Source: a virus. Taken from it: a stretch of DNA of 46,205 nt. Below, in pieces: positions 22,970-46,020 of this stretch (position 1 is the stretch's first letter; each line of letters starts with the position of its first letter). Location: the IMG/VR virus record IMGVR_UViG_3300042691_036428, positions 1 through 46,205 of that record; one strand, 5' to 3'. Under the pieces are notes generated by a model. The model had not been told where the DNA came from, made no database searches, and worked only from the letters and a program-made list of their open reading frames with translations. The translations under genes were made by a program, and so were the position numbers.

Positions 22970-22982
22970 ATAAATATTTATT
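22969..22982. promoter_or_regulatory. Divergent pair of late promoter boxes
   Basis: The 14-nt interval reads TATAAATATTTATT. On the plus strand TATAAATA (22969-22976) ends 6 nt before ATG 22983. On the minus strand AATAAATA (22982-22975) ends 5 nt before ATG 22969. One near-palindromic element could thus drive both divergent sets with almost leaderless transcripts. Confidence 0.55.
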
Positions 22983-24447: not shown

Positions 24448-24456
24448 GGATATAAC

Positions 24457-29650: not shown

Positions 29651-30521
29651 TTAGTGTTTCCATGTCTGCGAGTGCCATTCTATAAAGACCATTAACCAGT
29701 CTGTAACCAAACCTGTCAGTATATTTATTAGGTTGATGAAATAGAACATAATTTGCGCTGCTAGGAACACAACTAAAAGTACTTTCCAAATATGCTTTTG
29801 ATTCTAACATTCTAGTTATTACATCTGGCGTCATATCAATTATTTTTGGAACTATATATGATGCTAATGTTGTTGTCACATAACTTGGTCTATGATTTTG
29901 TAGCGAAAGGGTAATTTCATTATTAGCCTTACAGAATCCAACACGCAGACCTGCCAGTCCAATGCTTTTACTAAGGCTTTTTAATATTACAACATTGTTT
30001 GGTGTTTTGTTTAATAAACTAAAAGCATTATCATACTCAGCATAAACCTCATCTATTATACAATATTTAAAGTTATCTGTAAAGCCTTTTAGATCATACT
30101 TTTGACCATCAATATTGTTTGGGCTTGATACATACAAGATACTGTTTTTATCTACGGTTTGACTTAGTTGATTAAATTCAATGGTTTCAAACTCTATATT
30201 ATTAGCCCTACAAATAATACTTACAAATTCAAATGTTGGAACTACAATATATACTTTATTATAAGATAAAGATTTTAAACATCTTTCTATTAAATCTGAT
30301 GCTCCCAATCCTATACTAAGATTACAAAGTTCGATACCATAATATTCTGAGATAGATTTATAGACAAGATATTCATTTGGGTAATTATTAATATAACCTA
30401 CATTTTTCAATAAATCACTTATTTTTGTGTTTAAAATTTTATCATAAGGAACGTTGTGTGATAAGTTTATATCATCATAGTTATGATTTGGTACAGTCCA
30501 GTCTTTACGTATAAGATTCAT
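29640..30521 (-). CDS. HisC-like PLP aminotransferase
   Basis: The 293-aa protein is a class I/II aminotransferase nearest to histidinol-phosphate aminotransferase. LSIGLGASDLIERC near residue 72 matches the G-x-S/A-x-D-I-I segment, YVSSPNNIDGQ the SPNNPTG motif (last Gly kept), and ILKSLSKSIGLAGLRVGF carries the PLP Lys. SNYVLF-type SANYVLFH is also present. It is about 60 residues shorter than HisC. The host would already make histidine, so an amino-sugar or modified amino acid role is more likely. Confidence 0.85.
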   Translation of the reverse strand: MNLIRKDWTVPNHNYDDINLSHNVPYDKILNTKISDLLKNVGYINNYPNEYLVYKSISEYYGIELCNLSIGLGASDLIERCLKSLSYNKVYIVVPTFEFVSIICRANNIEFETIEFNQLSQTVDKNSILYVSSPNNIDGQKYDLKGFTDNFKYCIIDEVYAEYDNAFSLLNKTPNNVVILKSLSKSIGLAGLRVGFCKANNEITLSLQNHRPSYVTTTLASYIVPKIIDMTPDVITRMLESKAYLESTFSCVPSSANYVLFHQPNKYTDRFGYRLVNGLYRMALADMETLNAR

Positions 30522-30955
30522 TTTGTATTGATGTTTAATGCACTAAAGCTTTCTAAGTACATTTTTGTTTCTAAGAAAGGTTTATCTAAATCAATAGCAA
30601 GAAATACTGAATTAAAGTCTGAACTTGCTCCGTGATTTTGTGTAGTATCTATAATGAAACTGTCAGTAAACTCATGTGACCCGTCGTCTGTGTGGATTAC
30701 AAATTTAGAATTAGTAATTGGTATTATTAATGCAGAATCTCTACCGTCATCTATGTGTTTCTGAACATTTCCTGTTGGTAGTTTTCCTATGCAAATATTT
30801 TTAAAATTAAAATTAGCTATAAAATTATCTACTTCAGGATAGAATTCTAATAGTTCATTATTGCTATAACTTCTATCATGAGAATTGTTTAGTGTATAGT
30901 CTAAACAAAACTGTCTTACTTTTTCTGTTAATTTTATATGAATCTTATATAGCAT
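30518..30955 (-). CDS. Asp/Asn hydroxylase-like cupin protein
   Basis: The 145-aa protein has a short double-stranded beta-helix: GKLPTGNVQKHIDDGRDSALIIPI (H-x-D facial ligands), a SFIIDTTQNHGASSD turn with the third ligand His, and SVFLAIDLDKP. This is the layout of small aspartyl-hydroxylase-type Fe(II) oxygenases, though the Arg for 2-oxoglutarate is not clear. It overlaps the aminotransferase by 4 nt and the radical SAM gene by 11 nt. Confidence 0.65.
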   Translation of the reverse strand: MLYKIHIKLTEKVRQFCLDYTLNNSHDRSYSNNELLEFYPEVDNFIANFNFKNICIGKLPTGNVQKHIDDGRDSALIIPITNSKFVIHTDDGSHEFTDSFIIDTTQNHGASSDFNSVFLAIDLDKPFLETKMYLESFSALNINTK

Positions 30956-31718
30956 TTCTAAAAGCCGTTACAGAATCTTCGCCTTCTATAGTGCCATCAA
31001 TGTTGCAAAATTTGCATGGTGTTAAATCGCTTCGTCTACCATACATAAGATGTTTTCTATATTCAGAGTATAACTGATTGTTCCAAATGTTCTCTATACT
31101 ATTTTGTAAAACGTTTCCTACTTTTCCTTGTCTTCCCCAATCGTTGGAGCAAACGATAACATCACCGTTCCAATCAAAAAACATTTTATAATATGGAAGA
31201 AAACAAGGACGGTTTATGTTAATTTCTTTACCTAACATAATATCAGTTCTATTTACAAGTTTTATTTCAAACTTGTCTGAATACGCATGTTTAAAAATTA
31301 TTTCCATTTTTATGTTAGATGGGATCAATTTAAGTACATCTTGACTGATATCTTTGTCATACATACTTATTACTAATGAATTGCATCCAGCTTCGTATAA
31401 AGTTTTAATTTTATTTTTATATAAAAAATCACCATTAGTTATTACTCTGAGGCAGTTTATATTAGGTAGTTTTTTTCTAAAAATAGATATAGATTCAAAC
31501 AAGTGCTTATACAAGAATGGTTCACCAAATCCAACAAATGATATTAATTCTGAATAATTGATATCGTTTAAGTCATCAGCTATTTTTTTAACAGTGTCTA
31601 ATGACATATGATTTTTTGAATTACCGTATACTTCAGGATTGCCGCGTGGACAAAAAGAACATGTTCTATTACATATTTCTGTCGTATTAAGTTCTATTTT
31701 CTTTAAGGCTTCAATCAT
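30945..31718 (-). CDS. Radical SAM/SPASM protein, compact
   Basis: The 257-aa protein has C16NRTC20SFC23 and FVGFGEPFLY (SAM-binding G-E-P). The C-terminal SPASM-like cluster shows PCFLPYYKMFFDWNGDVIVCSNDWG and then PCKFCNIDG. SPASM domains hold auxiliary Fe-S clusters and often act on peptides or sugars. At 257 aa it is shorter than PqqE-type enzymes. It overlaps the glycosyltransferase gene by 8 nt. Confidence 0.9.
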   Translation of the reverse strand: MIEALKKIELNTTEICNRTCSFCPRGNPEVYGNSKNHMSLDTVKKIADDLNDINYSELISFVGFGEPFLYKHLFESISIFRKKLPNINCLRVITNGDFLYKNKIKTLYEAGCNSLVISMYDKDISQDVLKLIPSNIKMEIIFKHAYSDKFEIKLVNRTDIMLGKEININRPCFLPYYKMFFDWNGDVIVCSNDWGRQGKVGNVLQNSIENIWNNQLYSEYRKHLMYGRRSDLTPCKFCNIDGTIEGEDSVTAFRNAI

Positions 31719-32385
31719 ACTGTTTGCAGTAATTTACAAATATTTTTTCTTTTTCCCATAAGTCTGAGTAAACAACGTTTGAAAATTGTTTAAAATCGGG
31801 TATGCCCAAAGTATAATGAATCAGTTTTGCATCTTCATTAGTGCCATACTCGTCACTTAACCAATTCCATTCTAGTGGTAAATCACCCACCTCATCTTCA
31901 TTTAACCAAGTAAATCGATGTAGTATTTCCCCAGTAGATTCAGCTATACTTATGGGTGTTAGAAATTTATTTTTTGCATGACTACAATTCCATATCATCA
32001 CGCTGGACCAATTTTTTTTAGGATAATCGGCATTATGATTATTCAAATATTTAATTTTTGATTTTGTTTTATAGTTATGTTTTACTACCTGTACAGCATA
32101 ATTATTTGATCTCATATTCCATAGGTTTACTATGTCATCTAATACTAACATATCACCATCTAAAAATATAGCATGTCCAAAATATTTTGTAAGATATGGT
32201 ACTAAAAATCTCGTATATGTAAATGTATTACTTCCGTCATTGTGTACTTCCTTATAGTTATTAAGAAGATTCAGTGCTAAAGGTATAATAGCAACAGGTT
32301 CTGACGTATTTCTAATTATGCTGCTTGAGCAAGTATGAAATGCTACAGACTCATTGGGATCGTATCCAATAAAAATTGGTATCAT
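31711..32385 (-). CDS. GT8-like glycosyltransferase
   Basis: The 224-aa protein has YTRFLVPYLTKYFGHAIFLDGDMLVLDDI, a GT8/glycogenin-type DxD (DGD) with the preceding R for the nucleotide-sugar. WSSVMIWNCSH and HYTLGIPDF fit later strands of that fold. It would transfer a hexose from a nucleotide-sugar. It overlaps the small gene upstream by 4 nt. It is one of only two sugar transferases in the large operon. Confidence 0.82.
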   Translation of the reverse strand: MIPIFIGYDPNESVAFHTCSSSIIRNTSEPVAIIPLALNLLNNYKEVHNDGSNTFTYTRFLVPYLTKYFGHAIFLDGDMLVLDDIVNLWNMRSNNYAVQVVKHNYKTKSKIKYLNNHNADYPKKNWSSVMIWNCSHAKNKFLTPISIAESTGEILHRFTWLNEDEVGDLPLEWNWLSDEYGTNEDAKLIHYTLGIPDFKQFSNVVYSDLWEKEKIFVNYCKQYD

Positions 32386-32579
32386 AATTCGTGGTTTTCT
32401 AGGGAAACATTTAAAACGTCATTGTCTGTTATAAATTCTACTCTGTAATGAGTATTTTTTTTCTGTATATGAAATGTATCTGTTACCATTAATAACAATC
32501 CCATAGGAATACGATTTGATGCTATGATTTTATCATCTGCATATACGTTATAAGCTACTTCTTTTAAATCTTCATCCAT
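32382..32579 (-). CDS. Small beta-rich protein paired with the 225-aa family
   Basis: The 65-aa protein (VAYNVYADDKIIAS, LLMVTDTF, YRVEFITDNDVL) is a paralogue of the 28785 product. It follows the 225-aa gene with a 16-nt overlap, exactly as in the other pair, and its stop overlaps the GT8 start by 4 nt. The same overlap length in both pairs supports duplication of the two genes as a unit. Confidence 0.72.
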   Translation of the reverse strand: MDEDLKEVAYNVYADDKIIASNRIPMGLLLMVTDTFHIQKKNTHYRVEFITDNDVLNVSLENHEL

Positions 32580-33241
32580 TTTTCTCTCGCTATATGCTCA
32601 ATATCATCCAAATCAATATTTAGTATCTTACCCGTATTTTTAGAAAAATCTCTTGCCATTGATATGGATGTTGATAAAAATGCATCCCATGATATACACC
32701 AATGCTTAAAATCACACCAGTAATCTCCGTACTGATCATACATTAATTTATGAACACATAATGAAATTTCGGGCAATCCTTTTTCAGATATATCACGTAA
32801 GTATGGTAGTACGATACAGCCCTTATCTATAAAGTTTAGGAAATAATCTCTATCTATTTTTCTTTCAAGTAAATGGTGAAAAAATGTAATTCCGAATCTA
32901 TTTGAGGGTCTCTGTATTTCTGTATACAAATATAAGTTGTTTTTTATCTCTACATAATTATGTAGTATTGGAATGTCTATTCTGAACTGTTGCGTACTTG
33001 TAGATATATTATAAAGTTCTAAATGTTTATCCCAATCATGATTTGTATAAAAACTCGTAAGTTTATATATTTTGCCTGTGTTTTCAAAAAACATAGATGC
33101 ATTTTCTTTAGATAAGAATGTGCCATTTGGTTTTGTTTCCCAAATATAAGCATTTGATCTAATGCCCGAAGCGTTATTATGAAACGCCATTGCCTTATCT
33201 TCTGTCCAGTCTAAAACAAGTTTTTTTAAAATCTCAATCAT
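32564..33241 (-). CDS. Island-specific protein family, member 2
   Basis: The 225-aa protein shares the core segments of the 231-aa and 263-aa paralogues: MAFHNNASG, NHDWDKHLELYN, FRIDIPI, EIQRPSNR, HHLLERKIDRDYF and YWCDFKHWCISWDAF. Both HDW-H and WCDFKHW carry polar residues that are kept in the family. It abuts the 263-aa copy by a 4-nt overlap, so the three copies include a tandem duplication. Confidence 0.75.
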   Translation of the reverse strand: MIEILKKLVLDWTEDKAMAFHNNASGIRSNAYIWETKPNGTFLSKENASMFFENTGKIYKLTSFYTNHDWDKHLELYNISTSTQQFRIDIPILHNYVEIKNNLYLYTEIQRPSNRFGITFFHHLLERKIDRDYFLNFIDKGCIVLPYLRDISEKGLPEISLCVHKLMYDQYGDYWCDFKHWCISWDAFLSTSISMARDFSKNTGKILNIDLDDIEHIAREKWMKI

Positions 33242-34029
33242 AAATTTTTTTCCAAATAGTTTAATAGAAATTGTTTATCATAATCACTTAAATTGGAATT
33301 GTTAAAATTGTAAAAGTAATCTTTCTTTTCATTTAGCGTATATTTTTTATAATCAGCGTAAGAACTAACCCAATGTTTAATATCAGTCCATATACCTTTT
33401 GAAATGTCATTTGGATCTATCATGTATTTTATTATTAAAGAACCAAAGTTTGGACATCCCTTGTGATATGTGTCATCCAGTTTTTTAATTATTTTAGAAT
33501 ACTCTATTGTTGCATCAAATATTTTTATGAGCCATTCTTTTGTTATTTTATTCTCTATGTGAAGTTGATGCGGATCAATACGTTGAAACATATTTGGTCT
33601 TTGAACTACAGTGTACCAAAACTCTTTATTTTCTTTGTAAAATTTTTGCCCATCAATTGGAATCTCAATATCTATGTTTCTTTGTAAAGTTAATTCATAT
33701 AGTCTTTGATGCATTTCCCAGTCATGAGATTTGTGAGTACATGTAACTTTGTAAATTAAATCATCACTTGAGAAGTACACACAGGTACTATCAGTGTAAT
33801 ATAAATATCCATCATTTATTTTTTCATAAATGGGGAAAGGATCTGTTCTTTTATTATGATGAAATTGTATCCATAAAAAATATCCAAACGAATTATTAGG
33901 AAGACCCCATACATCTAATGGTTTAGATACAATGAGATCGTTTGGGTCAGTGTACTCTTTGCTTTCCTTAAACTGTCTAGCAGATTTAAAGGTATAGTTA
34001 AACAATTTTTCTTTGAGAAAATCAATCAT
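33238..34029 (-). CDS. Island-specific protein family, member 3 (longer)
   Basis: The 263-aa protein has the same core (SHDWEMHQRLYE, IDIEIPI, VVQRPNMFQ, HQLHIENKITKEWL, GIWTDIKHWVSSYADY) with a longer N-terminal part that includes DVWGLPNNSFGYFLWIQFHHN. It has no small partner gene directly after it. It is the first of the three in the operon and may be the ancestral or most diverged copy. Confidence 0.75.
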   Translation of the reverse strand: MIDFLKEKLFNYTFKSARQFKESKEYTDPNDLIVSKPLDVWGLPNNSFGYFLWIQFHHNKRTDPFPIYEKINDGYLYYTDSTCVYFSSDDLIYKVTCTHKSHDWEMHQRLYELTLQRNIDIEIPIDGQKFYKENKEFWYTVVQRPNMFQRIDPHQLHIENKITKEWLIKIFDATIEYSKIIKKLDDTYHKGCPNFGSLIIKYMIDPNDISKGIWTDIKHWVSSYADYKKYTLNEKKDYFYNFNNSNLSDYDKQFLLNYLEKNL

Positions 34030-34709
34030 AAATGTTTCTCAATAAACTCAATAAAATTAGTGTTTGTAACATACAATTTATTTTGTTTGAATAAGTTATA
34101 GCAATACAAAACTTTTTCTTTATCGGATTTAACCATATCTTCTAAATGGTTGTTGTCGTATAGCATTTCCAAAGCAGATATATTAATGTTTAATGTTATT
34201 CTTATCTCATTATTTGATAAAAAGTCGTGATATGTTACATTTTCTACAGGACAAAAGTATATACCTTTGTTTGGTTCCCAACTCAAAATAGAATGTTCCT
34301 TATCCCCCTCACAAAGAATTGTCCCAGTGCTTGAGAGTGGGCTTATATAAACCAAATAACTTAAAGATTTGTAATTTCCGCCGGTATCATCATGTATGCC
34401 ATATCTTTTATTCTTTGACACACCTATTTTAGGTATTACAAAATAACCATATTTTGAACTTCTATATTCAGAAAAGTTTTTAAATAAATTTGATTTTATA
34501 ATATAGTCCGAATGTTCTACTATTATATCTAGTGCATTTTTTTCTAAGCCCATCTTGCTTAAATCATGCAAATCAAATACATGGTTACCGTCATCAATTG
34601 ACGTAAAAATACTTTCTAAACTTAATTTTAATAGGTTAAACGAATTTAAATCTAAGCAGTTTTCCGTTACATAGTGAGGCCAAGGTTTCGATACGAACTG
34701 TCCCTTCAT
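34026..34709 (-). CDS. 2-oxoglutarate/Fe(II) oxygenase
   Basis: The 227-aa protein has the prolyl-hydroxylase-like pattern. PWPHYVTENCL starts the fold. YGIHDDTGGNYKSLSYLVYISP holds the H-x-D ligands, and a later FCPVENVTYHDFLSNNEIRITLNINI carries the distal His and the Arg for 2-oxoglutarate. It would hydroxylate a carbon in the pathway product or in a protein. It overlaps neighbours by 4 nt on both sides. Confidence 0.8.
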   Translation of the reverse strand: MKGQFVSKPWPHYVTENCLDLNSFNLLKLSLESIFTSIDDGNHVFDLHDLSKMGLEKNALDIIVEHSDYIIKSNLFKNFSEYRSSKYGYFVIPKIGVSKNKRYGIHDDTGGNYKSLSYLVYISPLSSTGTILCEGDKEHSILSWEPNKGIYFCPVENVTYHDFLSNNEIRITLNINISALEMLYDNNHLEDMVKSDKEKVLYCYNLFKQNKLYVTNTNFIEFIEKHL

Positions 34710-35290
34710 AAAATTATTTCCATATTAAAATTTTTCTTATTTTCTGCATAAATTGATAGGAAAAAGGTTTCATCAATTGACCATAAAGTTTGATATGTAT
34801 TTAGATAGTATATGTTTTCGTTAAGTATAGAAATACCTCTCAATCTATGTAATGATTGTCTAAATTTTTTATCTATTATTTTTGATTTACCTGCATTATC
34901 ATATTCATTTAAAGAATTGTTAGTTGTTAAAACAAACGGTGCTTTTGGGAAAGTTTTTTGAGCATAAATTATTTGTATAGGAAACATTAAACCGTATTGA
35001 ATACTTGTTTTTAGTAAATCTTTGCTTGGCTTAAATTTAAATTCCTGATCATATAATGCAACTGATCTAAATCCTATTCTATAATATTTTTGATTTTCAT
35101 ATTCAAAATTGTGTATTCCGCTTACAGATTTAATTTTGTTATTTTGAATAACTGCAAAAAATGCACTGTATTCAAAATGGTCAAACTTCATAGCTTTAAG
35201 TGATGAATTATTATTGTATCCTTTAGCAGCACATGCATCCATAAACTCAGGCAATAAAGGATCATCGCTATAAATTTGTTTGAGAATCAT
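34706..35290 (-). CDS. GNAT-like acyltransferase (putative)
   Basis: The 194-aa protein begins ILKQIYSDDPLLPEFMDACAAKGYN. It then shows FFAVIQNNKIKSVSGIHNFEY and YYRIGFRSVAL, the beta-hairpin plus strand layout of GNAT acetyltransferases. The R/Q-x-x-G-x-G/A acetyl-CoA loop is not evident, so catalysis is uncertain. An acyl transfer to an amino sugar would fit the two aminotransferases in the island. Confidence 0.5.
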   Translation of the reverse strand: MILKQIYSDDPLLPEFMDACAAKGYNNNSSLKAMKFDHFEYSAFFAVIQNNKIKSVSGIHNFEYENQKYYRIGFRSVALYDQEFKFKPSKDLLKTSIQYGLMFPIQIIYAQKTFPKAPFVLTTNNSLNEYDNAGKSKIIDKKFRQSLHRLRGISILNENIYYLNTYQTLWSIDETFFLSIYAENKKNFNMEIIL

Positions 35291-35880
35291 TTTTTACCTA
35301 TTATCATAAATCTTTTATACAACTGTGTCTGTAAAAAATCAGCATAGAATACAGTAGATAACTGACTTTGATTAATAAACTCATCTAAAGATTTTGCTAC
35401 CCTAACATGTTCATCTATTACATAATCATTGCTTTGTAAAACAATCAAACTATTATTATGTAAGCAAGTTAACCATTCTTCATATTCATCCTGCGTGATA
35501 TGTTCACAACTTGTGTTTATTGCAATGTCACTGTCACTTCTTAAATTACACATATTTGCTGTAATTGCTCTAAACCTACCACTTTCAAATTCTATACGAT
35601 TCATTGTATTGGCAGTCTGTTCACAACTAGGGTCAATGTCAATGCTTCGTATTGATTTAATTGGATATGGTGCCTGAAACAACAAACTTGCAAGTGTACC
35701 ATTCCATCCACCAAAAATATCAATGGTTGCAGGATCACCTACATATCTACCTAATTCTTTTACTAACCATAGCTTACTATGTATTTGCCCTCGCCAAAAA
35801 CCTTCAAGAGTGCGATTAGGATTCGGACTATTTCTAATAGCATCCATCCAAAACAATATATGTTCAATATCTATTCGCAA
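35287..35880 (-). CDS. Class I methyltransferase-like protein
   Basis: The 197-aa protein has IDIFGGWNGTLASLLF as motif I, IRSIDIDPSCEQTAN with the acidic end of strand 2, and AINTSCEHIT in the motif IV place. The N-terminus WRGQIHSKLWLVKEL is helical. The G-G-W-N-G loop replaces the more usual GxGxG but keeps the shape. It overlaps the radical SAM gene by 10 nt. Confidence 0.72.
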   Translation of the reverse strand: MRIDIEHILFWMDAIRNSPNPNRTLEGFWRGQIHSKLWLVKELGRYVGDPATIDIFGGWNGTLASLLFQAPYPIKSIRSIDIDPSCEQTANTMNRIEFESGRFRAITANMCNLRSDSDIAINTSCEHITQDEYEEWLTCLHNNSLIVLQSNDYVIDEHVRVAKSLDEFINQSQLSTVFYADFLQTQLYKRFMIIGKK

Positions 35881-36857
35881 AACTGTTCCTTTAATTTATC
35901 TATTTTACCACATTGTTTTGTGCATTCTTTTAATGGGTTTGTATCCCATGTCTGTTCAATTTTATCAAAATAATCAGACATAAAAATTTCACTCAATGAG
36001 TTTTGATTTAAATTTGGGAAATATCCTATTTTATCCATGTAATCAATTCTATTATCGTGCCTATGCTGTATATAGTTTAAATCTAGCCAACAACATGGAG
36101 TAACACTTCCGTCAGCCCCTATATATATTTGTTTATATTTTTGTGCTTTGCAAGTAATTTCTGAATGTGTTTCTATTTGTGTAACTTTTAATTTATTTGA
36201 AATTTCTTTACTTTTACTTGTAGGATAAAGAATATCTATTGTTTTGCCAGCATCATCTAAAACATTAAATTTGTTATCTATGAATCTACTTGTGTGTTTT
36301 ATTAAAAATTTATCGAAACCTAAATCTTTGCTTAGTTGTCTGCAACTTTCAATTTGATGTTCATTATGTTTAAACACCAACATATGCCATTCTGCTATAC
36401 CGCCTGCATTAATAAATGCACTAGCATTCTCTATTATTTTGTCAAAATTAGTATTAATTCTGTATAGTGAATGAGTATCTTGTAATCCATCTATACCAAA
36501 CACTACACGGTCTACTGTTTTGCCTAACTTCATCCACCAATCTATGTCTCTAGCAGACCCGTTGGTATGCATAGACAAATGTATATTAGGATTAGTTTCT
36601 GACAAATATTCAAAAACTTCTAAACAGTCTTTAGCAATAATAGGATCTCCATAATTGCCACACATGAATAAACTGTCTAACTGTTTAATAAACCCTACAG
36701 GAAACCATAACTTAAATGTATCTAGGTCAATTTCATTTAATTCTAAAAAAGGATTCAACATGCCACCATTGATCCGTCTCGGGCACATTGGGCATTTAGC
36801 TTGACATTTGCTAGTAATTTCTAAGTGTATATCTCTTATTTCTTCAAACTTATACAT
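35871..36857 (-). CDS. Radical SAM/SPASM protein
   Basis: The 328-aa protein has C18QAKC22PMC25, LFMCGNYGDP (SAM-binding GDP variant of GGEP) and VVFGIDGLQDTHSLYR. The SPASM region shows ITCKAQKYKQIYIGADGSVTPCCWL and a C-terminal CTKQCGK. The N-terminal CPMCPRR resembles enzymes that act on peptides or tRNA-like partners, but no substrate is evident. It overlaps its neighbours by 22 and 10 nt. Confidence 0.9.
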   Translation of the reverse strand: MYKFEEIRDIHLEITSKCQAKCPMCPRRINGGMLNPFLELNEIDLDTFKLWFPVGFIKQLDSLFMCGNYGDPIIAKDCLEVFEYLSETNPNIHLSMHTNGSARDIDWWMKLGKTVDRVVFGIDGLQDTHSLYRINTNFDKIIENASAFINAGGIAEWHMLVFKHNEHQIESCRQLSKDLGFDKFLIKHTSRFIDNKFNVLDDAGKTIDILYPTSKSKEISNKLKVTQIETHSEITCKAQKYKQIYIGADGSVTPCCWLDLNYIQHRHDNRIDYMDKIGYFPNLNQNSLSEIFMSDYFDKIEQTWDTNPLKECTKQCGKIDKLKEQFCE

Positions 36858-37816
36858 TTTGGTATTTTACTATCTGCACTGCTTACACAACTATTTGTCA
36901 TACATTTATTTGGACTTTTGTGAAGTTGAAATCCATCTTGAATTGTTCCTAAAATTTCATCATGACAACTGTAACCTCGTTTTACATCAGAACCACGTAT
37001 GATAATACTTTGATATCCAGAATTACAATTCCAACCTTTAAATTTGTTAAACCCAAATGCATTAAATCTTTCTGCTTGGTCAATATAATGTGTTCTATTA
37101 TCTACATCAATTAATCTTATTTGATATAGTTCTTCGTTGTTTACTTTTTGTGGGAACCCAGTACGCATTAAGTTAATCATTTCTTCGGTGTACCCATTAA
37201 CTATTTCAGTAGCAGTTTCATTGCTCTGCGGCTTTAATGTAACATTGATTCCTCTATTTGAAAATCTACTACATCTTTCGTACAATTCAAAAAATAGTTC
37301 TGGAACCATCACTTGATTTATAGTGACAAAAACATTTTCTCCCATAAGGAACAAACATTTTTCTGCAAATTCATCTTCATTAGCAAACTCACTATGATAA
37401 CTCGCAGTAATGCTTTTTCGCTGCAACAACTCTGTACTCATTGACCAACGTTGCCACCAATTCTTACTTGGACTGAGATTGGTAGTCATATGTATGCTTT
37501 GGTAAGGAGTTATGCCATCCTCTAAGAATCTAAGTAATTCTAAAATATTTTTGTATGCAGTAGGTTCACCACCACTAAACGACCAATGAAATTTATTAAA
37601 ACCATTCTGTCTTGCTTGTTCTTTGATACTAGTTATAGTCTTTTGATATCTATCTAATGGTTGGTGGTCTAACTTATCGCTGCGAGCATAGGGCCAACAA
37701 TAACTGCATTTGTAATTGCAAAATCTACCCAATATCCAGCTAACTGAAAAAAGAGAATTGTCAAGCATAGTTTGTTGTCCAAACTTAACAATTCTCTCAA
37801 ATGGTATTTCTGTCAT
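36836..37816 (-). CDS. Radical SAM protein with C-terminal cysteines
   Basis: The 326-aa protein has C33NYKC37SYC40WPY, HWSFSGGEPTAYK and MTTNLSP. The C-terminus shows GWNCNSGYQS, GYSCHDE, and CMTNSCVSS, a possible auxiliary cluster like that of the protein at 25841-26758. These two are the most similar pair among the six radical SAM proteins: both have a CNY(D/K)CSYC core and the GW-C-N-(A/S)-G motif. It starts inside the 444-aa gene's stop (4-nt overlap). Confidence 0.9.
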   Translation of the reverse strand: MTEIPFERIVKFGQQTMLDNSLFSVSWILGRFCNYKCSYCWPYARSDKLDHQPLDRYQKTITSIKEQARQNGFNKFHWSFSGGEPTAYKNILELLRFLEDGITPYQSIHMTTNLSPSKNWWQRWSMSTELLQRKSITASYHSEFANEDEFAEKCLFLMGENVFVTINQVMVPELFFELYERCSRFSNRGINVTLKPQSNETATEIVNGYTEEMINLMRTGFPQKVNNEELYQIRLIDVDNRTHYIDQAERFNAFGFNKFKGWNCNSGYQSIIIRGSDVKRGYSCHDEILGTIQDGFQLHKSPNKCMTNSCVSSADSKIPKCISLKK

Positions 37817-39797: not shown

Positions 39798-39990
39798 GTC
39801 AGGACGACGATCCTGACATAATGCGAGGTAACTCGCATTATTCTAAAGCATACTGTGTGATATAGGGTACAGTCGGGGTGCCAAATGGGATCCTTTTAGA
39901 CGGACGGTTCAACTCCGTAAATAGTGTGCTTTAGAATAATTAGTGTGTGACAAACAGAAACAAACCCTCTGACGGTAGTTACCACACACT
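39798..39990 (+). ncRNA. Candidate structured RNA with 18-bp stem
   Basis: The 430-nt gap at 39692-40121 has no convincing gene but strong RNA structure. Helix I is gtcagga/tcctgac (39798-39817). Helix II is aatgcgag/ctcgcatt closed by a GUAA (GNRA) tetraloop (39820-39839). Helix III is an 18-bp stem with one G-U (39837-39854 with 39923-39940). It encloses an arm ACGG/CCGT with loop TTCAACT (39904-39918), which is T-loop-like. Helix IV is agtgtgtg/cacacact (39942-39949, 39983-39990). Helices II and III share three bases and so compete. The RNA class is unknown. Confidence 0.55.
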
Positions 39991-40257: not shown

Positions 40258-40332
40258 TGGGGATTCGTCAAGTGGTAAGACACTGGATTTTGATTCCAGC
40301 ATTCGGGGGTTCGAATCCCTCATCCCCTACCA
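40258..40332 (+). tRNA. tRNA-Gln(TTG)
   Basis: It forms a full cloverleaf. The anticodon stem ctgga/tccag carries TTG. T loop is TTCGAAT and CCA is encoded. The first pair is a T-T mismatch, close to the weak U1-A72 of bacterial tRNA-Gln. Confidence 0.95.
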
Positions 40333-40337
40333 TTAAT

Positions 40338-40415
40338 GCCGCCTTAGCTCAGTTGGACTAGAGTACAACGCTACGAACGTTGGGGTCGGGAGTTCGAATC
40401 TCTCAGGCGGTACCA
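40338..40415 (+). tRNA. tRNA-Arg(ACG)
   Basis: Acceptor gccgcct/aggcggt, anticodon arm caacg-ctACGaa-cgttg, T loop TTCGAAT, CCA encoded. It starts 5 nt after tRNA-Gln and is probably co-transcribed. Confidence 0.95.
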
Positions 40416-40454
40416 TTAATTATACTATGATGAATATTTCTGATACATATTTTT

Positions 40455-41267
40455 ATGAATATTCATTATGCCCTACAAACTTGTGATAACATGGTTAGAG
40501 ATTCTTCACTTACTAGATATTGTGAGTGCAGTAAAGCAGAGATAACCAAAAAGTGTGTCACTAGTTTTTTAAATTCTGCAAAAGTATTATCCGAAAACGT
40601 TCCTAACATTTATCAGACCATAGCTATTTTTGATGATAATAGTAGTGATGAAACTGTAAATTACTTAAAGGAATGTATAAGTTATTACAGTTCAGATAAA
40701 ATTAAAATAGAATTTTATAGGTTGAACGGTGTTGGATTATTCGGTTCCGTTCGTGCTTGTTATAATTGGTTAGAAACTAATGGTAAAGATTTAGTTTATC
40801 AAGTGCAAGACGATTACTTGTTTGAACCCTATGCATTATATGAAATGTCGCATATTGTTTCACAAATTAAAAATGAAACAGATCAAGCAGTTTTAGCTTT
40901 TCCCTTTGTGCATCCGTTGTACTATTTTGATATTTACAAATATCAAAGTTTAGAAAGAGTAATAGTACCGGGTATAAAACAATACTGGATACAGCATTTT
41001 GAGATTGGTTGTACATTTATGACGACCAAAGAAGAATTTAGTAAACATTGGGACATATATGAAGATTTTTTTAATGGTGATCTTCAGGATGATCAATTAG
41101 AAATTAAATCATTTAATAGAATATTTAAAGAACGAAAAACTCCATTCATGCAACCATTCACTAGTGTTGCATTACATATGCAATCGCCAGCAGATAAAGA
41201 CCCATATATTGATTGGCAAGCAAGATGGAATAATGTACCGGTTTTAGGATCCATGCAGCAAAGTTAA
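40455..41267 (+). CDS. GT-A-like glycosyltransferase, paralogue of the 1397 fusion
   Basis: The 270-aa protein is closely related to the N-terminal half of the fusion at 1397-2797. Shared features are IAIFDDNSSDET, YQVQDDYLFEPYALYEM (DxD-like QDDY), FNRIFKERKTPF and DPYIDWQARW. The methyltransferase half is missing. It is flanked by tRNAs, and its last codons overlap the RNA element at 41241-41307. Start at ATG 40455 has no clear ribosome site. The substrate is unknown. Confidence 0.78.
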   Translation: MNIHYALQTCDNMVRDSSLTRYCECSKAEITKKCVTSFLNSAKVLSENVPNIYQTIAIFDDNSSDETVNYLKECISYYSSDKIKIEFYRLNGVGLFGSVRACYNWLETNGKDLVYQVQDDYLFEPYALYEMSHIVSQIKNETDQAVLAFPFVHPLYYFDIYKYQSLERVIVPGIKQYWIQHFEIGCTFMTTKEEFSKHWDIYEDFFNGDLQDDQLEIKSFNRIFKERKTPFMQPFTSVALHMQSPADKDPYIDWQARWNNVPVLGSMQQS

Positions 41268-41307
41268 AAAATCAATCTTGTAAATTGAAAAAAGCGGATC
41301 CTGTTTT
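41241..41307 (+). repeat. Structured repeat element, copy 1
   Basis: gttttAGGATCC at 41241-41252 pairs with GGATCCTgttt (41296-41302), enclosing CAGCAAA and GAAAA. Copy 2 at 41546-41608 has the same plan with AGGATGC/GCATCCT, so one base pair has switched from C-G to G-C. It overlaps the 3' end of the glycosyltransferase gene. The T-rich tail could also make it a terminator. Confidence 0.6.
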
Positions 41308-41311
41308 ATTT

Positions 41312-41385
41312 GCTCCTATAGTATAAAGGCATTACACTACATTGGTAATGTAGAAAAACTGGATCGTTACCAGTTGGGAGCACCA
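41312..41385 (+). tRNA. tRNA-Thr(GGT)
   Basis: Acceptor gctccta/tgggagc, anticodon GGT in a 7-nt loop, CCA encoded. The T loop is ATCGTTA (A at position 54, T at 58), an inverted version of the usual T54-A58 pair. Confidence 0.92.
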
Positions 41386-41393
41386 AATATATT

Positions 41394-41468
41394 GCCTTCG
41401 TAGCTCAGTGGTAGAGCATCGTCTTGATAAGGCGAGGGTCGTTGGATCGTTCCCAACCGAAGGTACCA
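41394..41468 (+). tRNA. tRNA-Ile(GAT)
   Basis: Acceptor gccttcg/cgaaggt, anticodon arm tcgtc-ttGATaa-ggcga, CCA encoded. The T loop ATCGTTC again has A54 and T58. Confidence 0.95.
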
Positions 41469-41469
41469 T

Positions 41470-41545
41470 GGTAGAGTAGCATAGTGGCTAATGCACCACC
41501 TTCATACGGTGTTTATCGTCAGTTCGAGTCTGACCTCTACTACCA
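41470..41545 (+). tRNA. tRNA-Met(CAT) or tRNA-Ile2(CAT)
   Basis: Acceptor ggtagag/ctctact, anticodon loop ttCATac, normal T loop TTCGAGT and encoded CCA. CAT may read AUG, or AUA if the C is lysidinylated. The sequence does not decide. The tRNA starts 1 nt after tRNA-Ile. Confidence 0.9.
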
Positions 41546-41608
41546 GTTTTAGGATGCTTACAGCAAATTACTACACTTTCGTCATGTGAAAAGAATGCAT
41601 CCTGTTTA
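41546..41608 (+). repeat. Structured repeat element, copy 2
   Basis: This is the second copy of the element (AGGATGC 41551-41557 with GCATCCT 41597-41603; CAGCAAA and GAAAAG in the loop). It follows the CCA end of tRNA-Met directly and ends just before the minus-strand kinase-like stop. The two copies bracket the three tRNAs Thr, Ile and Met. Confidence 0.6.
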
Positions 41609-41609
41609 A

Positions 41610-42221
41610 TTATACCGGATCTGTGATTACTAATGTGTTACCTCGACGCATAAAGTTGTCGTCATGCAGATCAAGGTCGCCTCTGTGAGTAGGCAGATTG
41701 TTAAGAAAGTCAACGACTTGGAATAGTTGCGGATACTTTTGTTGTAAGAATGCTTCATTTTTATGCCAAAACACATCGTTCCAATTTACATTATTATTTC
41801 TTTTGGACTGTTGTATTTCTGGGGCAACGTATTGATTGTAAAAACTCCAATCTTTAATTGGTTCTAAAAGTTCCATTCTTACAGCATAGGCACTGGGACT
41901 AATTCTTCTAATTTTGCCCATAAACTTTGGAACAAATGGATTATCTTGATGCCGCATTGCATAGTTAGCAAAATTAATCCAATCCTTATTACTGCTTTCA
42001 AATACTTTAAGAACGTAGTTGAATTTAGGATTCTTAAAAACTAACGAAGAATACCCATAGCCTGCTAATGTCCAACCATAGGATTTTAGTTGATTAGTTA
42101 AGTTATCTGCTTGAGCAGCAGTATACCCGGTTTCGTCAGGGTCTAATTTTGCGGTACCAAATTCTTGGGCTGCTTGATATGCAGGATGTTTTTTGATACC
42201 TACTAATTCGTTAATCTTCAT
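41610..42221 (-). CDS. Kinase-fold protein (putative phosphotransferase)
   Basis: The 203-aa protein has a protein-kinase-like plan. A glycine loop (LAGYGYSSLVFK) and a strand with NYVLKVFE (candidate ATP Lys) precede HRGDLDLHDDNFMRRGN, a catalytic loop with Asp and Asn, and ITDPV in the metal-binding (DFG) position. It is smaller than full kinases. A late box lies 5 nt upstream. Such proteins occur in marine phages; whether it phosphorylates protein or a small molecule is open. Confidence 0.7.
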   Translation of the reverse strand: MKINELVGIKKHPAYQAAQEFGTAKLDPDETGYTAAQADNLTNQLKSYGWTLAGYGYSSLVFKNPKFNYVLKVFESSNKDWINFANYAMRHQDNPFVPKFMGKIRRISPSAYAVRMELLEPIKDWSFYNQYVAPEIQQSKRNNNVNWNDVFWHKNEAFLQQKYPQLFQVVDFLNNLPTHRGDLDLHDDNFMRRGNTLVITDPV

Positions 42222-42226
42222 ATTAG

Positions 42227-42234
42227 TATTTATC
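42227..42234 (-). promoter_or_regulatory. Late promoter box before the kinase-like gene
   Basis: On the minus strand GATAAATA ends 5 nt before ATG 42221. The spacing equals that of the boxes at 22975-22982 and 39153-39160. Confidence 0.5.
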
Positions 42235-42287
42235 GCTGATATCCGGCATGGCGGTACGATTGTGGTTGAGTGTAGAGATTAAATAAT

Positions 42288-42363
42288 GGTGTCTTTAGTG
42301 TAGTGGCCTGCACACTAGTCTGTGAAACTGGAAGTACGAGATCGATACTCGTAAGACACCCCA
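42288..42363 (+). tRNA. tRNA-His(GTG)
   Basis: The sequence encodes G-1 opposite C73, the His identity pair, then 7-bp acceptor gtgtctt/aagacac and CCA. Anticodon GTG. T loop ATCGATA (A at 54). Confidence 0.93.
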
Positions 42364-42376
42364 AAAGGAGATAGCT

Positions 42377-42964
42377 TTGACTATAGAAAATTGGTTTTCA
42401 GTTCCAGTATTGTATCATGATTTTACTGATGTAGAATTAAAATTGATACAAAAAGAGATTAAAGATGCAATGCCACAAATTAATAATATGGATTTAACTA
42501 ATCCATGGGGCGATACAGTAGAAACAAGTTTTAAGTACAACAAAGAATGTAATATAATTAAAGAATACAATCTTGAATACTTGAATCAAGCAATACTGAA
42601 TCAGGCAGATATGTTTTGTGAATCGTTTAAGTTATCTTATGAATTAAGAATCAAAGAGTCATGGATTAATATATCTAAAGTAGGTGGTTTTCAGTTTGCA
42701 CATAAACACTTGCCTTATTTGTTATCAGGTGTTTATTATTATAATGCAACTGAAGATGATGGATCATTGCAATTTTTGAGTCCTAATCCATGGCATGACG
42801 AACGAACATATCCTTTTGGATTTAACAAAATAACATACAAGCCAGTAACTGGTAGAATAATAATTTTTCCAAGTTACTTAGAGCATTTAGTAAATGTAAA
42901 CAATAATGATAGTAAGCGAATATCATTTTCGTTTAATATAGAATCCTTCGGTAGCTCACGGTAG
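42377..42964 (+). CDS. 2OG-Fe(II) oxygenase, GGxxxxHxH type
   Basis: The 195-aa protein has the pattern of the small phage/cyanobacterial 2OG-Fe(II) oxygenase family: ESWINISKVGGFQFAHKHLPYLLSGVYYYNA (H-x-H), LQFLSPNPWHDE, then GRIIIFPSYLEHLVNVNNND and KRISFSFNI (Arg for 2-oxoglutarate). Start is TTG 42377 with an aaggag site 6 nt upstream; the first internal ATG is 30 codons in. The last 20 nt lie inside the next tRNA gene. Confidence 0.82.
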   Translation: MTIENWFSVPVLYHDFTDVELKLIQKEIKDAMPQINNMDLTNPWGDTVETSFKYNKECNIIKEYNLEYLNQAILNQADMFCESFKLSYELRIKESWINISKVGGFQFAHKHLPYLLSGVYYYNATEDDGSLQFLSPNPWHDERTYPFGFNKITYKPVTGRIIIFPSYLEHLVNVNNNDSKRISFSFNIESFGSSR

Positions 42965-43034
42965 AGCAGGATGCCTTATAAGCATTTGTCCAGATAAGAC
43001 CCAGGATGAGGTTCGATTCCTCACCGAAGGACCA
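42945..43034 (+). tRNA. tRNA-like gene with long variable arm, anticodon probably TAT (Ile)
   Basis: Acceptor ccttcgg/ccgaagg, D stem gctc/gagc and T loop TTCGATT are normal, and ACCA is encoded. The anticodon stem gatgc/gcatt leaves loop cttATaa with anticodon TAT. The variable region is about 20 nt (tgtccagataagacccagga), far longer than the usual 5 in Ile tRNA. It resembles class II tRNAs in length but no Leu, Ser or Tyr anticodon fits. Isotype is uncertain. Confidence 0.75.
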
Positions 43035-43035
43035 A

Positions 43036-43111
43036 GCACCTTTAGCTGATGTGGTCATAGCAACGGTCTGAAGAATCGTGGAACTAGGTTCGATTCCTAG
43101 AGGGTGCACCA
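43036..43111 (+). tRNA. tRNA-Phe(GAA)
   Basis: Acceptor gcacctt/agggtgc, anticodon arm acggt-ctGAAga-atcgt, T loop TTCGATT, CCA encoded. It starts 1 nt after the odd tRNA. Confidence 0.95.
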
Positions 43112-43129
43112 ATTTATAGGTAATTTGTT

Positions 43130-43663
43130 ATGTTAATTAAAAATGTACTCAGTTCTGAAAAGGCAAATGAATTAGAAAATGTCATTATGGGCAGTGACTT
43201 CCCATGGTATTGGAACGAGTCTACTTTGGTTAACTATGATAATACTTTTAAAGATTTAAGAAATTATCAATTTACCCATAATTTTTATGTAAATGGGAAA
43301 ATAAATTCTAACTATTGCTATCTTATTGATCCTATAATTGAATCGATAGAAAAAAATACAGATGTTAAAATAAAAAGAATTTTTAGGGCAAAAGCAAATT
43401 TACTGACACAGGTGAATTTGACCGAAGAGGAAATTGAAGCAGAAACACATACAGATATTCTTATTGACAAATATTATAGTTTTGTGTATTATGTATGCGA
43501 TTCTGATGGTGAAACAGTTTTATATGATGACGATGTTATCGAAAAAGCAACACCTGAAAAAAATACAGGTATCTTTTTCAAGTCAAGTATAAATCATAGG
43601 GGAACAAACCCTAGTGTTAATAAACGCAGGGTTGTTATAAATTTAGTTTTAGAAACTTATTGA
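43130..43663 (+). CDS. 2OG-Fe(II) oxygenase, second small type
   Basis: The 177-aa protein has AETHTDILIDKYYSFVYYVCDSDGETVLYDDD (H-x-D ligands) and later FFKSSINHRGTNPSVNKRRVVINLVL (distal His and Arg for 2-oxoglutarate). It is shorter than its 42377 neighbour and has a different sequence. The TGA stop shares two bases with the start of the next tRNA-Arg. Confidence 0.75.
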   Translation: MLIKNVLSSEKANELENVIMGSDFPWYWNESTLVNYDNTFKDLRNYQFTHNFYVNGKINSNYCYLIDPIIESIEKNTDVKIKRIFRAKANLLTQVNLTEEEIEAETHTDILIDKYYSFVYYVCDSDGETVLYDDDVIEKATPEKNTGIFFKSSINHRGTNPSVNKRRVVINLVLETY

Positions 43664-43733
43664 GTCCTTAGTCTAATGGATAAGATACTGCATTCCGATT
43701 GCAATGATGCAGGTTCGATTCCTGCAGGACTCA
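43662..43733 (+). tRNA. tRNA-Arg(CCG)
   Basis: Acceptor gagtcct/aggactc, anticodon loop ttCCGat, T loop TTCGATT. CCA is not encoded (sequence continues acatg), unlike most of the others. The first two bases lie in the stop codon of the upstream gene. Confidence 0.93.
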
Positions 43734-43776
43734 CATGTTAAATAGATATGACAAAATAACATAAAGGGAGGTGTAA

Positions 43777-44337
43777 ATGTCAGTTCTAGCATTGGATATC
43801 GGCGGAGTCCCAAGACAGTGGATTTCATATGATGACGCAATTACCTATCACGCTAAAAATGCTGTAGCATGGAGTATGGGTGAAGTTGTGGCTCGTTATC
43901 GTGGTGGTATTCAGAATGATGGAACTATGAGTTACATTGAAACTCCTAGTATAATTGCAATTAAAGGTCATGGATTTGACCCATACAAACATGGAATGGT
44001 TGCATTGACTAACAGAACATTGTTTGGTCGTGATAGAAATGTTTGTGCATATTGCGGTGACCATCATGTTAACCATCATCATCTAAGTCGTGATCATATT
44101 GTTCCAAAAAGCAAAGGTGGTACTAATACTTGGATGAATGTAGTCACTGCATGTAAACCATGTAACAGTCGCAAAAGTGATAAAACACTAAAGGAAGCAC
44201 GTATGGAATTACTATATGCACCTTATGTGCCTAATCACTATGAAAACATGATTCTACAACACCGCAATATACTTGCGGATCAAATGGAGTACTTATTAAC
44301 AGGTGTTCCAAAGCATAGTAGAATACTGTTGTCATAG
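43777..44337 (+). CDS. HNH endonuclease
   Basis: The 186-aa protein has an HNH domain: VCAYCGDHH, LSRDHIVPKSKGG, then TWMNVVTACKPCNSRKSDKT, with two CxxC zinc pairs and the central DH. The N-terminal 90 residues are unassigned. It is probably a free-standing homing-type nuclease lodged in the tRNA region. A strong ribosome site (agggaggtg) precedes ATG. Confidence 0.9.
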   Translation: MSVLALDIGGVPRQWISYDDAITYHAKNAVAWSMGEVVARYRGGIQNDGTMSYIETPSIIAIKGHGFDPYKHGMVALTNRTLFGRDRNVCAYCGDHHVNHHHLSRDHIVPKSKGGTNTWMNVVTACKPCNSRKSDKTLKEARMELLYAPYVPNHYENMILQHRNILADQMEYLLTGVPKHSRILLS

Positions 44338-44363
44338 GAGCAACTTGTTAACAAAAAGATAGT

Positions 44364-44415
44364 TCACAGTGAGGCTTGACAAATATTCCTCACTGTGATA
44401 TTATCTGTATAAATA
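44364..44415 (+). promoter_or_regulatory. Early promoter inside an 11-bp inverted repeat, plus late box
   Basis: TTGACA (44376-44381) and TATTAT (44399-44404) are 17 nt apart. A perfect 11-bp inverted repeat tcacagtgagg/cctcactgtga (44364-44374 and 44388-44398) flanks the -35, which looks like an operator. TATAAATA at 44408-44415 adds a late box 9 nt before tRNA-Thr. No T-run follows, so a terminator is unlikely. Confidence 0.7.
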
Positions 44416-44424
44416 GAAGTTCAC

Positions 44425-44500
44425 GCTGGTTTAGCTCAGTAGGTAGAGCAACTGCCTTGTAAGCAGTAGGTCGTCAGTTCGAATCCGACAACCAGCACCA
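44425..44500 (+). tRNA. tRNA-Thr(TGT)
   Basis: Acceptor gctggtt/aaccagc, anticodon arm actgc-ctTGTaa-gcagt, T loop TTCGAAT, CCA encoded. It lies directly behind the early and late promoter boxes. Confidence 0.95.
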
Positions 44501-44517
44501 TTTACTATTAATTATAA

Positions 44518-44880
44518 ATGCATGTAACATATTTGGGTTGTTATGGAAATGTATATCTAAGACAACATATTTTAAATTCAGGTGAATCTGTTCAAGGTCA
44601 TAAGCATTATTACGATCATGTAACATTGATTACTCAAGGTAAAATTGTTGTTGAAATTGAAGGTTACGATCCTAAAGAATTTACTGCCCCAAACTTTGTT
44701 GTAATAAACAAAGATATTAAACATACTATAACTGCACTAGAAGATAATACAATGTATTTTTGTATTTTTGCATTAAGAGACAAAGATGGTGTTGTTATAG
44801 AAGATATGTATGAAGCAATGCATGATCCTAGGTCATATGGCGCGGATCATGGTAATTTAATAGATCCAGATACAATTTAA
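44518..44880 (+). CDS. Cupin-domain protein
   Basis: The 120-aa protein has a single cupin fold: SVQGHKHYYDHVTLITQGKIVVEIEG holds the first motif (H-x-H, with Y-Y-D-H-V-T-L) and FVVINKDIKHTITALED the second. Cupins bind metal and act as oxygenases or binding proteins. There is no signal. It sits 17 nt after tRNA-Thr and ends 1 nt before tRNA-Asn, so it may share their transcript. Confidence 0.8.
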   Translation: MHVTYLGCYGNVYLRQHILNSGESVQGHKHYYDHVTLITQGKIVVEIEGYDPKEFTAPNFVVINKDIKHTITALEDNTMYFCIFALRDKDGVVIEDMYEAMHDPRSYGADHGNLIDPDTI

Positions 44881-44881
44881 T

Positions 44882-44957
44882 TGACCGGTAGCTCAGAGGT
44901 AGTAGCAGTTGACTGTTAATCAATTGGTCGTAGGTTCGATCCCTACCCGGTCAGCCA
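44882..44957 (+). tRNA. tRNA-Asn(GTT)
   Basis: Acceptor tgaccgg/ccggtca, anticodon arm gttga-ctGTTaa-tcaat, T loop TTCGATC, CCA encoded. Confidence 0.95.
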
Positions 44958-44987
44958 GTTTTCTTTATGTGTTTTATAGGAGTTGTA

Positions 44988-45182
44988 ATGTTAATTACTG
45001 AAAGTCAAGGCTTTAAACTGTTTTGTGAAACACGTAAAATAGATACGCCAGCAGATACTTATCATGTTCGTATTTTTACGAAGTATCTTTTTTCAAAAGA
45101 TCCTGAGTCAGAGCAAACCAAAATGGAATTGTTTTTAACTAGTAATGAACTAGAAAAACTCAGTGAAATGCTAAAACCCTAA
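44988..45182 (+). CDS. Small protein, 64 aa
   Basis: The 64-aa protein starts MLITESQGFKLFCETRK and ends LFLTSNELEKLSEMLKP. It is soluble, with a beta start and helical end, and no known motif. ATG 44988 follows a taggag ribosome site. It lies between tRNA-Asn and tRNA-Arg. Confidence 0.65.
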   Translation: MLITESQGFKLFCETRKIDTPADTYHVRIFTKYLFSKDPESEQTKMELFLTSNELEKLSEMLKP

Positions 45183-45186
45183 TTAT

Positions 45187-45261
45187 CTGGCGTTCGTTCA
45201 ATGGACAGGACATCGGTCTTCTAAACCGAGAATAGAGGTTCGACTCCTCTACGCCGGACCA
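45187..45261 (+). tRNA. tRNA-Arg(TCT)
   Basis: Acceptor ctggcgt/acgccgg, anticodon arm tcggt-ctTCTaa-accga, T loop TTCGACT, CCA encoded. It is the third Arg tRNA in the window. Confidence 0.95.
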
Positions 45262-45279
45262 AAATATTTTAAAAAATAG

Positions 45280-45308
45280 TTGACATTAAATCCAAGACGA
45301 GATATAAT
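45280..45308 (+). promoter_or_regulatory. Perfect consensus sigma70-type promoter
   Basis: TTGACA (45280-45285) and TATAAT (45303-45308) are exactly 17 nt apart. It is the strongest promoter in the window. It would transcribe tRNA-Glu, the 417-nt RNA block, tRNA-Asp and tRNA-Trp. Confidence 0.85.
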
Positions 45309-45351
45309 GTCTTTATCGTAGTAAAATATCTTTAACAATTTAACTTTCAAA

Positions 45352-45426
45352 GTACCGTGGGACGGCTGGTGTGGTCAGCTGCCTTTCAAGCAGCGCAGAT
45401 GGGATCAAAACCCATACGGTACTCCA
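45352..45426 (+). tRNA. tRNA-Glu(TTC)
   Basis: Acceptor gtaccgt/acggtac, anticodon arm gctgc-ctTTCaa-gcagc, CCA encoded. The T loop is ATCAAAA (A at 54). Its last base is also the first base that could pair in the RNA block. Confidence 0.93.
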
Positions 45427-45843
45427 TATTGAAACACATTTCTGTCATTGCCGTGCCAGCTTCACGGTGAGTACAAGAGTCGGAACTAGCTACCCGACAG
45501 GTTGTATAAAGTTACAAGTGGGTTAATGACAGCCCCTTGGAAGTGTGTTTCAATATGATTAAACAGTTATGTCCACTCAACGAGAGATTCGTAGAGACAA
45601 GATCGCATCTTGTTTTTGGAGTGCGGTGAGATACCGACGGTGGACGCCATATTGAAGCACATTCGGCTGGTCGTAAAATCGTCGTTGGACTTTAAGACTG
45701 AGTGTGTTTCAATATAGTTTATATTAGTTTTGTAGCTTGTAAGCACAGAGGCAGGCGCAGGCGTTATGTAACCGAAACAATAAACAGTAATCACGTGTAA
45801 AGCTGTTGAGTTAGGCATATAGTGCAGGCTACAAAACTAATAT
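45427..45843 (+). ncRNA. Large structured RNA block between tRNA-Glu and tRNA-Asp
   Basis: The 417 nt exactly fill the space between the CCA of tRNA-Glu and the first base of tRNA-Asp. Four domains are visible. A (45427-45556): 16-17-bp closing stem, inner ctgtcatt/aatgacag and three hairpins. B (45570-45646): stem gtccac/gtggac with three hairpins, two with identical GAGAT loops (45580-45592, 45624-45636) and one acaagat-cgc-atcttgt. C (45649-45715): 16-bp stem. D (45721-45843): perfect 16-bp stem. No reading frame is convincing. tRNA processing enzymes would set both ends. I do not recognise the class. Confidence 0.7.
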
Positions 45844-45921
45844 GGCTCAGTAGCATAGTTGGTCTAATGTACTTGCCTGTCACGCAAGAGATCACGGGTT
45901 CGAATCCCGTCTGGGTCGCCA
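45844..45921 (+). tRNA. tRNA-Asp(GTC)
   Basis: Acceptor ggctcag/ctgggtc, anticodon arm cttgc-ctGTCac-gcaag, T loop TTCGAAT, GCCA end. It starts directly after the RNA block. Confidence 0.95.
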
Positions 45922-45927
45922 AATTAT

Positions 45928-46001
45928 TCCGGTGTAGTATAATGGCAGTGCTGCGGTCTCCAAAACCGCAAGTGGCAGTTCGATTCTGTCCACCGGAGCC
46001 A
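45928..46001 (+). tRNA. tRNA-Trp(CCA)
   Basis: Acceptor tccggtg/caccgga, anticodon arm gcggt-ctCCAaa-accgc, T loop TTCGATT, GCCA end. Eight T follow, which may stop transcription. Confidence 0.95.
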
Positions 46002-46020
46002 TTTTTTTTGTGAGGGTATT

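Follow-up and report, generated by a model that had tools for sequence, protein, structure and literature searches.

Palindromic kissing loops predicted in a new tRNA-linked phage RNA family, and a clamp helix shared by RNA elements of phage tRNA arrays

Introduction

Natural RNAs with evolutionary evidence of self-association are few, namely OLE, GOLLD, ROOL, the retroviral genomes, and the pRNA of phage phi29. Within this set, GOLLD and ROOL occur in phages and prophages as homo-oligomers, and their genes often lie near tRNA islands (PMC12286853). The criterion of the symmetric kissing loop is exemplified by the L9.3 palindrome of OLE, which switches from GGCC to GAUC or AGCU between homologs, and the same palindrome argument for pairing between copies holds for L21a of GOLLD (PMC12286853).

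Here we analyse a 46,205-nt IMG/VR virus record from an uncultured freshwater phage, referred to over its full length as the window. The ribonucleotide reductase of this phage shares 81-89% identity with that of many IMG/VR contigs, and its nearest isolate by this protein is Xanthomonas phage X1 (61%). Two of its tRNA genes enclose four RNA elements, A to D, of which D is predicted to join the self-associating, tRNA-linked RNAs of phages as a new family, while A and C are members of an extensive class of elements closed by one helix, called here the clamp. The inter-tRNA gaps of phages, usually taken as spacers, harbour a large set of undescribed RNAs.

The tRNA locus

The right end of the window is occupied by tRNA genes on the plus strand, running from 40258 to 46001 according to ARAGORN. 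The preliminary description had placed a 417-nt interval exactly between two tRNAs, and the interval 45427-45843 is indeed the gap between tRNA-Glu (TTC; 45352-45426) and tRNA-Asp (GTC; 45844-45921), with tRNA-Trp (CCA; 45928-46001) as the next tRNA of the array. The perfect promoter described upstream was likewise confirmed as a sigma-70-type TTGACA-17 nt-TATAAT sequence on the plus strand (45280-45308), ahead of tRNA-Glu and matching the consensus at 12 of 12 positions; a comparable TTGACA...TACAAT is found upstream of tRNA-Glu in locus L102. Over 45427-45843, ARAGORN and Rfam gave no tRNA or tmRNA match. An 83-aa open reading frame on the minus strand (45567-45818) was dropped as a candidate gene, since it crosses B, C and D opposite to the tRNA strand.

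Inspection by eye revealed an open reading frame with an HNH-like CxxC...HH motif within the tRNA array (43777-44337), a similar one adjoining the tRNAs of L102, and, at 20054-37816 of the window, dense open reading frames resembling radical-SAM, methyltransferase, aminotransferase, and glycosyltransferase genes.

Elements of the interval and their fold

The minimum free energy of the 417-nt interval is -140.8 kcal/mol, lower than that of each of 100 dinucleotide-shuffled versions, which average -106.4 (sd 5.3) and give a z of -6.5. All its elements are read on the plus strand. Element A (45426-45556) is a clamp-closed RNA with arms at 45426-45440 and 45542-45556; the CCA end of tRNA-Glu continues directly into it, and its outermost arm pair uses the final A of this CCA. 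Element C (45649-45715; arms 45649-45663 and 45701-45715) is a clamp-closed RNA of 67 nt with a homolog in L229, and D (45721-45843), closed by stem P1 (45721-45741 with 45823-45843), abuts tRNA-Asp. Between A and C, folding predicts the weaker hairpin B (45571-45645). Long stems had been proposed for all four domains; they were found in A and C (18 bp each) and in D (21 bp), but B has a closing stem of only 7 bp. A further clamp-type element, E (39837-39940, plus strand), lies upstream of the tRNA array, with a 22-bp stem, the clamp ATTATTCTAAAGCATACT/AGTGTGCTTTAGAATAAT, the T-arm-like GACGGTTCAACTCCGT ahead of its 3' arm, and an interior with a homolog in L229.

The arms of A and C are near copies, as described earlier, with 90% identity over 20 nt between the 5' strands and 100% over 15 nt between the 3' strands. 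From this likeness, the interval had been proposed to be a single bistable or multimeric RNA, switching between the local stems of A and C and swapped A-C stems. The swapped fold does exist, is fully paired, and is only 4.4 kcal/mol less stable than the local one (-136.4 versus -140.8 kcal/mol), and A-B-C stays together in L229. However, the local fold takes about 99% of the predicted ensemble, leaving a swapped population of about 1% (pair probability about 0.012), and the local stems would be the first to form during transcription. The modules, in addition, separate in relatives: A occurs without C in five loci, by itself in L181, L313, L317, and L320, and directly followed by D in L230. Moreover, the same clamp closes more than 100 unrelated interiors, and A resembles C because both belong to the large class sharing it. 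Module separation and the small swapped population thus make the bistable reading unnecessary; it is largely refuted by the former, and we give it hardly any credence. Multimerisation is supported as a prediction, but for domain D and through palindromic kissing loops.

In L229, the only place outside the window where B was found, together with A and C, D lies about 800 nt off, past tRNA-Ile, and in L102 and L227 a different clamp element is followed by D. The clamp is kept in all 7 members of A, whose loops are ambiguous as to self-pairing, loop 1 changing from AGCT to AACT in L313 and L317; a pattern search for further homologs of A gave matches that were mostly chance and coding. In L262, L292, L293, L295, L117, L230, and L317, where D or A is not preceded by a tRNA, an unassigned recurring module ending roughly in ...GTGGCCTAAGCA takes the position immediately before it.

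The clamp class

Our searches showed that the predicted clamp helix of A and C recurs in at least 205 distinct elements, whose interiors are for the most part unrelated. This helix, AUAUUGAARCACAYU...ARUGUGUUUCAAUAU, lies in nearly all cases beside phage tRNAs, and the interiors fall by blastn into at least 133 clusters, a count that depends on one similarity threshold. The exact 3' arm AGTGTGTTTCAATAT served as the first seed and matched at least 120 stretches; 108 of the 120 loci listed combine an entire clamp element with a neighbouring tRNA, 58 hold more than one element, and 203 of 232 clamp places among the matches listed are at most 400 nt from a tRNA. Since the elements of this first set were selected by their likeness to a consensus, a second seeding was made with the 5'-arm variant ATATTGAAGCATATT alone. 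When this seed lay at most 400 nt from a same-strand tRNA, a 15/15-paired partner within 200 nt accompanied it in 13 of 14 cases; elsewhere, this was so in 1 of 102, and that one was 443 nt from a tRNA.

Near-identical inverted repeats around unrelated interiors in many phages, with interiors recurring next to different neighbours, are also what would be seen if the clamps were terminal inverted repeats of small MITE-like mobile DNA elements residing in tRNA arrays. The changes within the stem point instead to RNA. When oriented by the nearest tRNA, the non-Watson-Crick cells among the matches listed are mainly G-U on the tRNA strand (332, versus 54 A-C and 35 other), a preference that DNA repeats would not show. 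Compensatory arm changes are also frequent: 77 distinct arm pairs among the matches listed contain 55 double-changed cells with pairing kept, compared with a mean of 7.6 and a maximum of 20 in shuffles and at most 8 with a slid partner. Even the arms of D, which have diverged, still pair. Compensatory and G-U changes on the tRNA strand thus keep the clamp paired, which argues that it works as RNA, and we regard the mobile-element explanation as very unlikely. Recombination may still move the cassettes, and this would be compatible with an RNA role.

A second explanation would reduce the clamp to a signal for tRNA maturation or spacing, its interiors having no function of their own. The position of the elements lends it some weight: among the matches listed, 184 elements are preceded by a tRNA on their own strand, and 77 of them overlap the tRNA end, often beginning on its final A; most elements have CC right before ATAT and GG after it, so that the helix commonly extends through the CCA. 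As a set, moreover, the interiors are folded little more stably than their shuffles (mean z -0.47). On the other hand, interiors are conserved across phages with differing clamps, as in cluster 0, present in 14 loci, and in cluster 13, where one 23-nt interior is found within three covarying clamps, and D possesses a long invariant core and a covarying palindrome. A mere signal is therefore unlikely, even though we infer that the position of the clamp on tRNA ends serves processing. Palindromic hairpin loops were found in 10 of 132 interior representatives among the matches listed, against 4 expected, which ruled them out as a class-wide property. As the interiors are not generally palindromic, the predicted self-pairing applies to D and does not extend to the class.

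Element D, a separate family

Alignment and comparison of its members showed D to be a family of its own. Its closing stem covaries, its core is conserved, and its apical loop is palindromic in every member examined, although the loop sequence varies. Pattern searches and a covariance model (R1) recovered about 90 loci, some on contigs above 500 kb, and the D of the window, whose row is part of the model alignment, scores 108.6 bits (E 4.5e-22). Across the 30 pairs and 50 sequences of the alignment, 95.1% of the pair cells are paired versus 73.1% after shuffling, a control that leaves sequence relatedness in, and 23 of the 30 pairs change on both sides. Double-changed cells amount to 289, whereas shuffling leaves 75 and slid versions reach 71 at most; over the latter, the structure is favoured by having been drawn with the 50 sequences in view. 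Long core segments are invariant. The structured RNA proposed for the interval thus has strong covariation in relatives, for the stems of D as well as for the clamp.

The downstream tRNA is abutted by 38 of 71 D members. In five loci (L221, L257, L258, L267, and L286), the D core sits inside an A/C-type clamp, which joins D to the clamp class. L253 and L287 were noticed to be one jumbo-phage-sized contig of 524,565 nt, carrying two D copies with apparently different apical palindromes.

Palindromic loops and predicted self-pairing

In the window, the apical hairpin of D (45784-45806, plus strand; ACAG/CTGT) exposes the loop palindrome CACGTG (45792-45797), the predicted main kissing loop, and a short hairpin (45751-45762, plus strand) is centred on the palindrome GCGC (45755-45758), predicted to form a second symmetric kissing loop. 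Each of the 38 distinct apical loops of the D alignment contains a palindrome of 6 nt or longer, 21 distinct palindromes being used, whereas in 2000 rounds of shuffling the letters of these loops, 9.4 loops were palindromic on average and never more than 18. The family total reaches 25 distinct apical palindromes of 6-10 nt, and no exception appeared in the further members examined; those outside the training alignment include L170 (TCAGGCCTGA), L236 (TCGCGA), and L245 (ATTCGAAT). The second hairpin occurs in 30 distinct forms, 27 of which have a palindrome of at least 4 nt, compared with an average of 9.9 and no more than 19 after shuffling.

Since neighbouring bases of a single strand are unable to pair with each other, these loop palindromes are evidence that one copy pairs with another. 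The loop sequence changes and its self-complementarity is kept, the pattern of a symmetric kissing loop, which predicts that D associates with itself; with its two symmetric contacts, either a dimer joined at two points or a chain could form. It might be argued that the loops, being palindromes at the DNA level, several of which are cut by known restriction enzymes, are targets of a homodimeric protein or a nuclease. A DNA-binding protein, however, would keep its sequence, and here 25 palindromes top a covarying RNA hairpin, so this alternative is extremely improbable.

With its small size of about 123 nt, its strong covariation, and two dozen palindrome replacements provided by nature, D lends itself to direct tests of homodimerisation and of its role by means of short synthetic RNAs.

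Novelty and proposed mechanism

The Rfam search that the preliminary description had proposed was run on the window at gathering and permissive (E just under 10) thresholds; only tRNA families matched, with one chance-level YrlA hit over tRNAs, so that the structured RNA lies outside Rfam. In eight further loci, the permissive search returned nothing over the elements. BLAST searches against INPHARED phages with D, a class-2 D, and one clamp element gave only short matches with E-values of at least 0.2. Exact clamp and D patterns had no match in bacterial and archaeal genomes, these patterns being narrow enough for diverged copies to escape, and the open-access PMC literature yielded no description of the clamp or D.

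Most likely, D is a stable RNA that tRNA processing sets free and that assembles with itself. The order of the operon is promoter, tRNA-Glu, A, B, C, D, tRNA-Asp, tRNA-Trp, and these would be transcribed together. By analogy with tRNA operons, the tRNA-maturation machinery would then cut after the CCA of the upstream tRNA, and RNase P at the downstream one, so that each element would be freed as a small, stable RNA closed by its clamp. Through its palindromic apical loop, D would pair with a second D copy, and the second short palindromic loop would probably pair too, giving a homodimer or a longer assembly. As a whole, this account of a run of cassettes within a tRNA operon, released by tRNA maturation, with self-pairing of D, seems to us probable.

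What the assembled RNA would do is more tentative. Following what has been considered for GOLLD and ROOL, it could be a scaffold or decoy aiding the phage, which is our best guess though, taken alone, less likely than not. Somewhat more doubtful is the wider picture in which large aquatic phages keep an arsenal of exchangeable RNA devices in their tRNA operons, with a single constant and sequence-specific clamp placed on the CCA end of tRNAs and more than 130 unrelated interiors exchanged among phages, some of them, such as D, self-assembling through evolving palindromic loops. If this were true, palindrome switching would keep the RNA of a phage pairing with itself and not with the RNA of a co-infecting phage, a putative distinction between self and non-self.

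Comparison with known systems

The closest systems are GOLLD and ROOL. As these, D is phage-encoded, noncoding, and tRNA-linked, being found in or near phage tRNA islands, and its self-association is predicted to proceed by symmetric kissing loops. It differs in size, many GOLLD members exceeding 800 nt, and in having its own core and covarying clamp without a match to any Rfam model; the GOLLD and ROOL models gave no match in 45250-46010 at E <= 10 nor in eight D-bearing loci at E <= 0.05. A GOLLD RNA was observed in L220 (6249-6711) with a tRNA inside (6312-6383), directly followed by a 53-nt clamp element (6717-6770) whose 23-nt interior recurs within differently covarying clamps in L174 and L184, where Rfam finds no GOLLD.

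With OLE L9.3 and the retroviral dimer-initiation site, D shares a palindromic apical loop and the switching of the palindrome between homologs; it is nevertheless a different RNA, of other size and genome context, and its 25 palindromes have 6-10 nt.

Some clamp elements also recall tRNAs. A T-arm-like TTCRA stands just before the 3' arm in 15 of 205 clamp elements among the matches listed, compared with 6 of 205, likewise among the matches listed, that have it within the initial 20 nt of their interior. The clamp helix, however, is at least twice as long as an acceptor stem, and ARAGORN called no tRNA over any clamp element. One clamp element by tRNA-Ile (L102, 1660-1756), with the T-arm-like GGTTCGAATCC directly before its 3' arm, resembles a tRNA whose acceptor stem is much extended. 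In other phage tRNA regions, Rfam detected a tmRNA (L111, 13913-14302), a permuted-tmRNA-like RNA (L108, 8496-8776, minus strand), and a group I intron (L138, 13185-13378, minus strand).

Finally, species 1 and 2 of phage T4 (rnaC and rnaD), for which we know of no function, belong to a T4 tRNA cluster without being tRNAs and are annotated there as small stable RNAs, and this annotation shows, by analogy, that RNAs of such clusters can be stable products. As in some clamp elements, rnaC has a T-arm-like hairpin beside its 3' closing strand. By inspection, both differ from the elements described here in the shared clamp and the palindromic loop, which they do not have, and the D model R1 found no match in the T4 tRNA region (L231). 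The clamp class may bear on the roles of T4 species 1 and 2, GOLLD, and ROOL.
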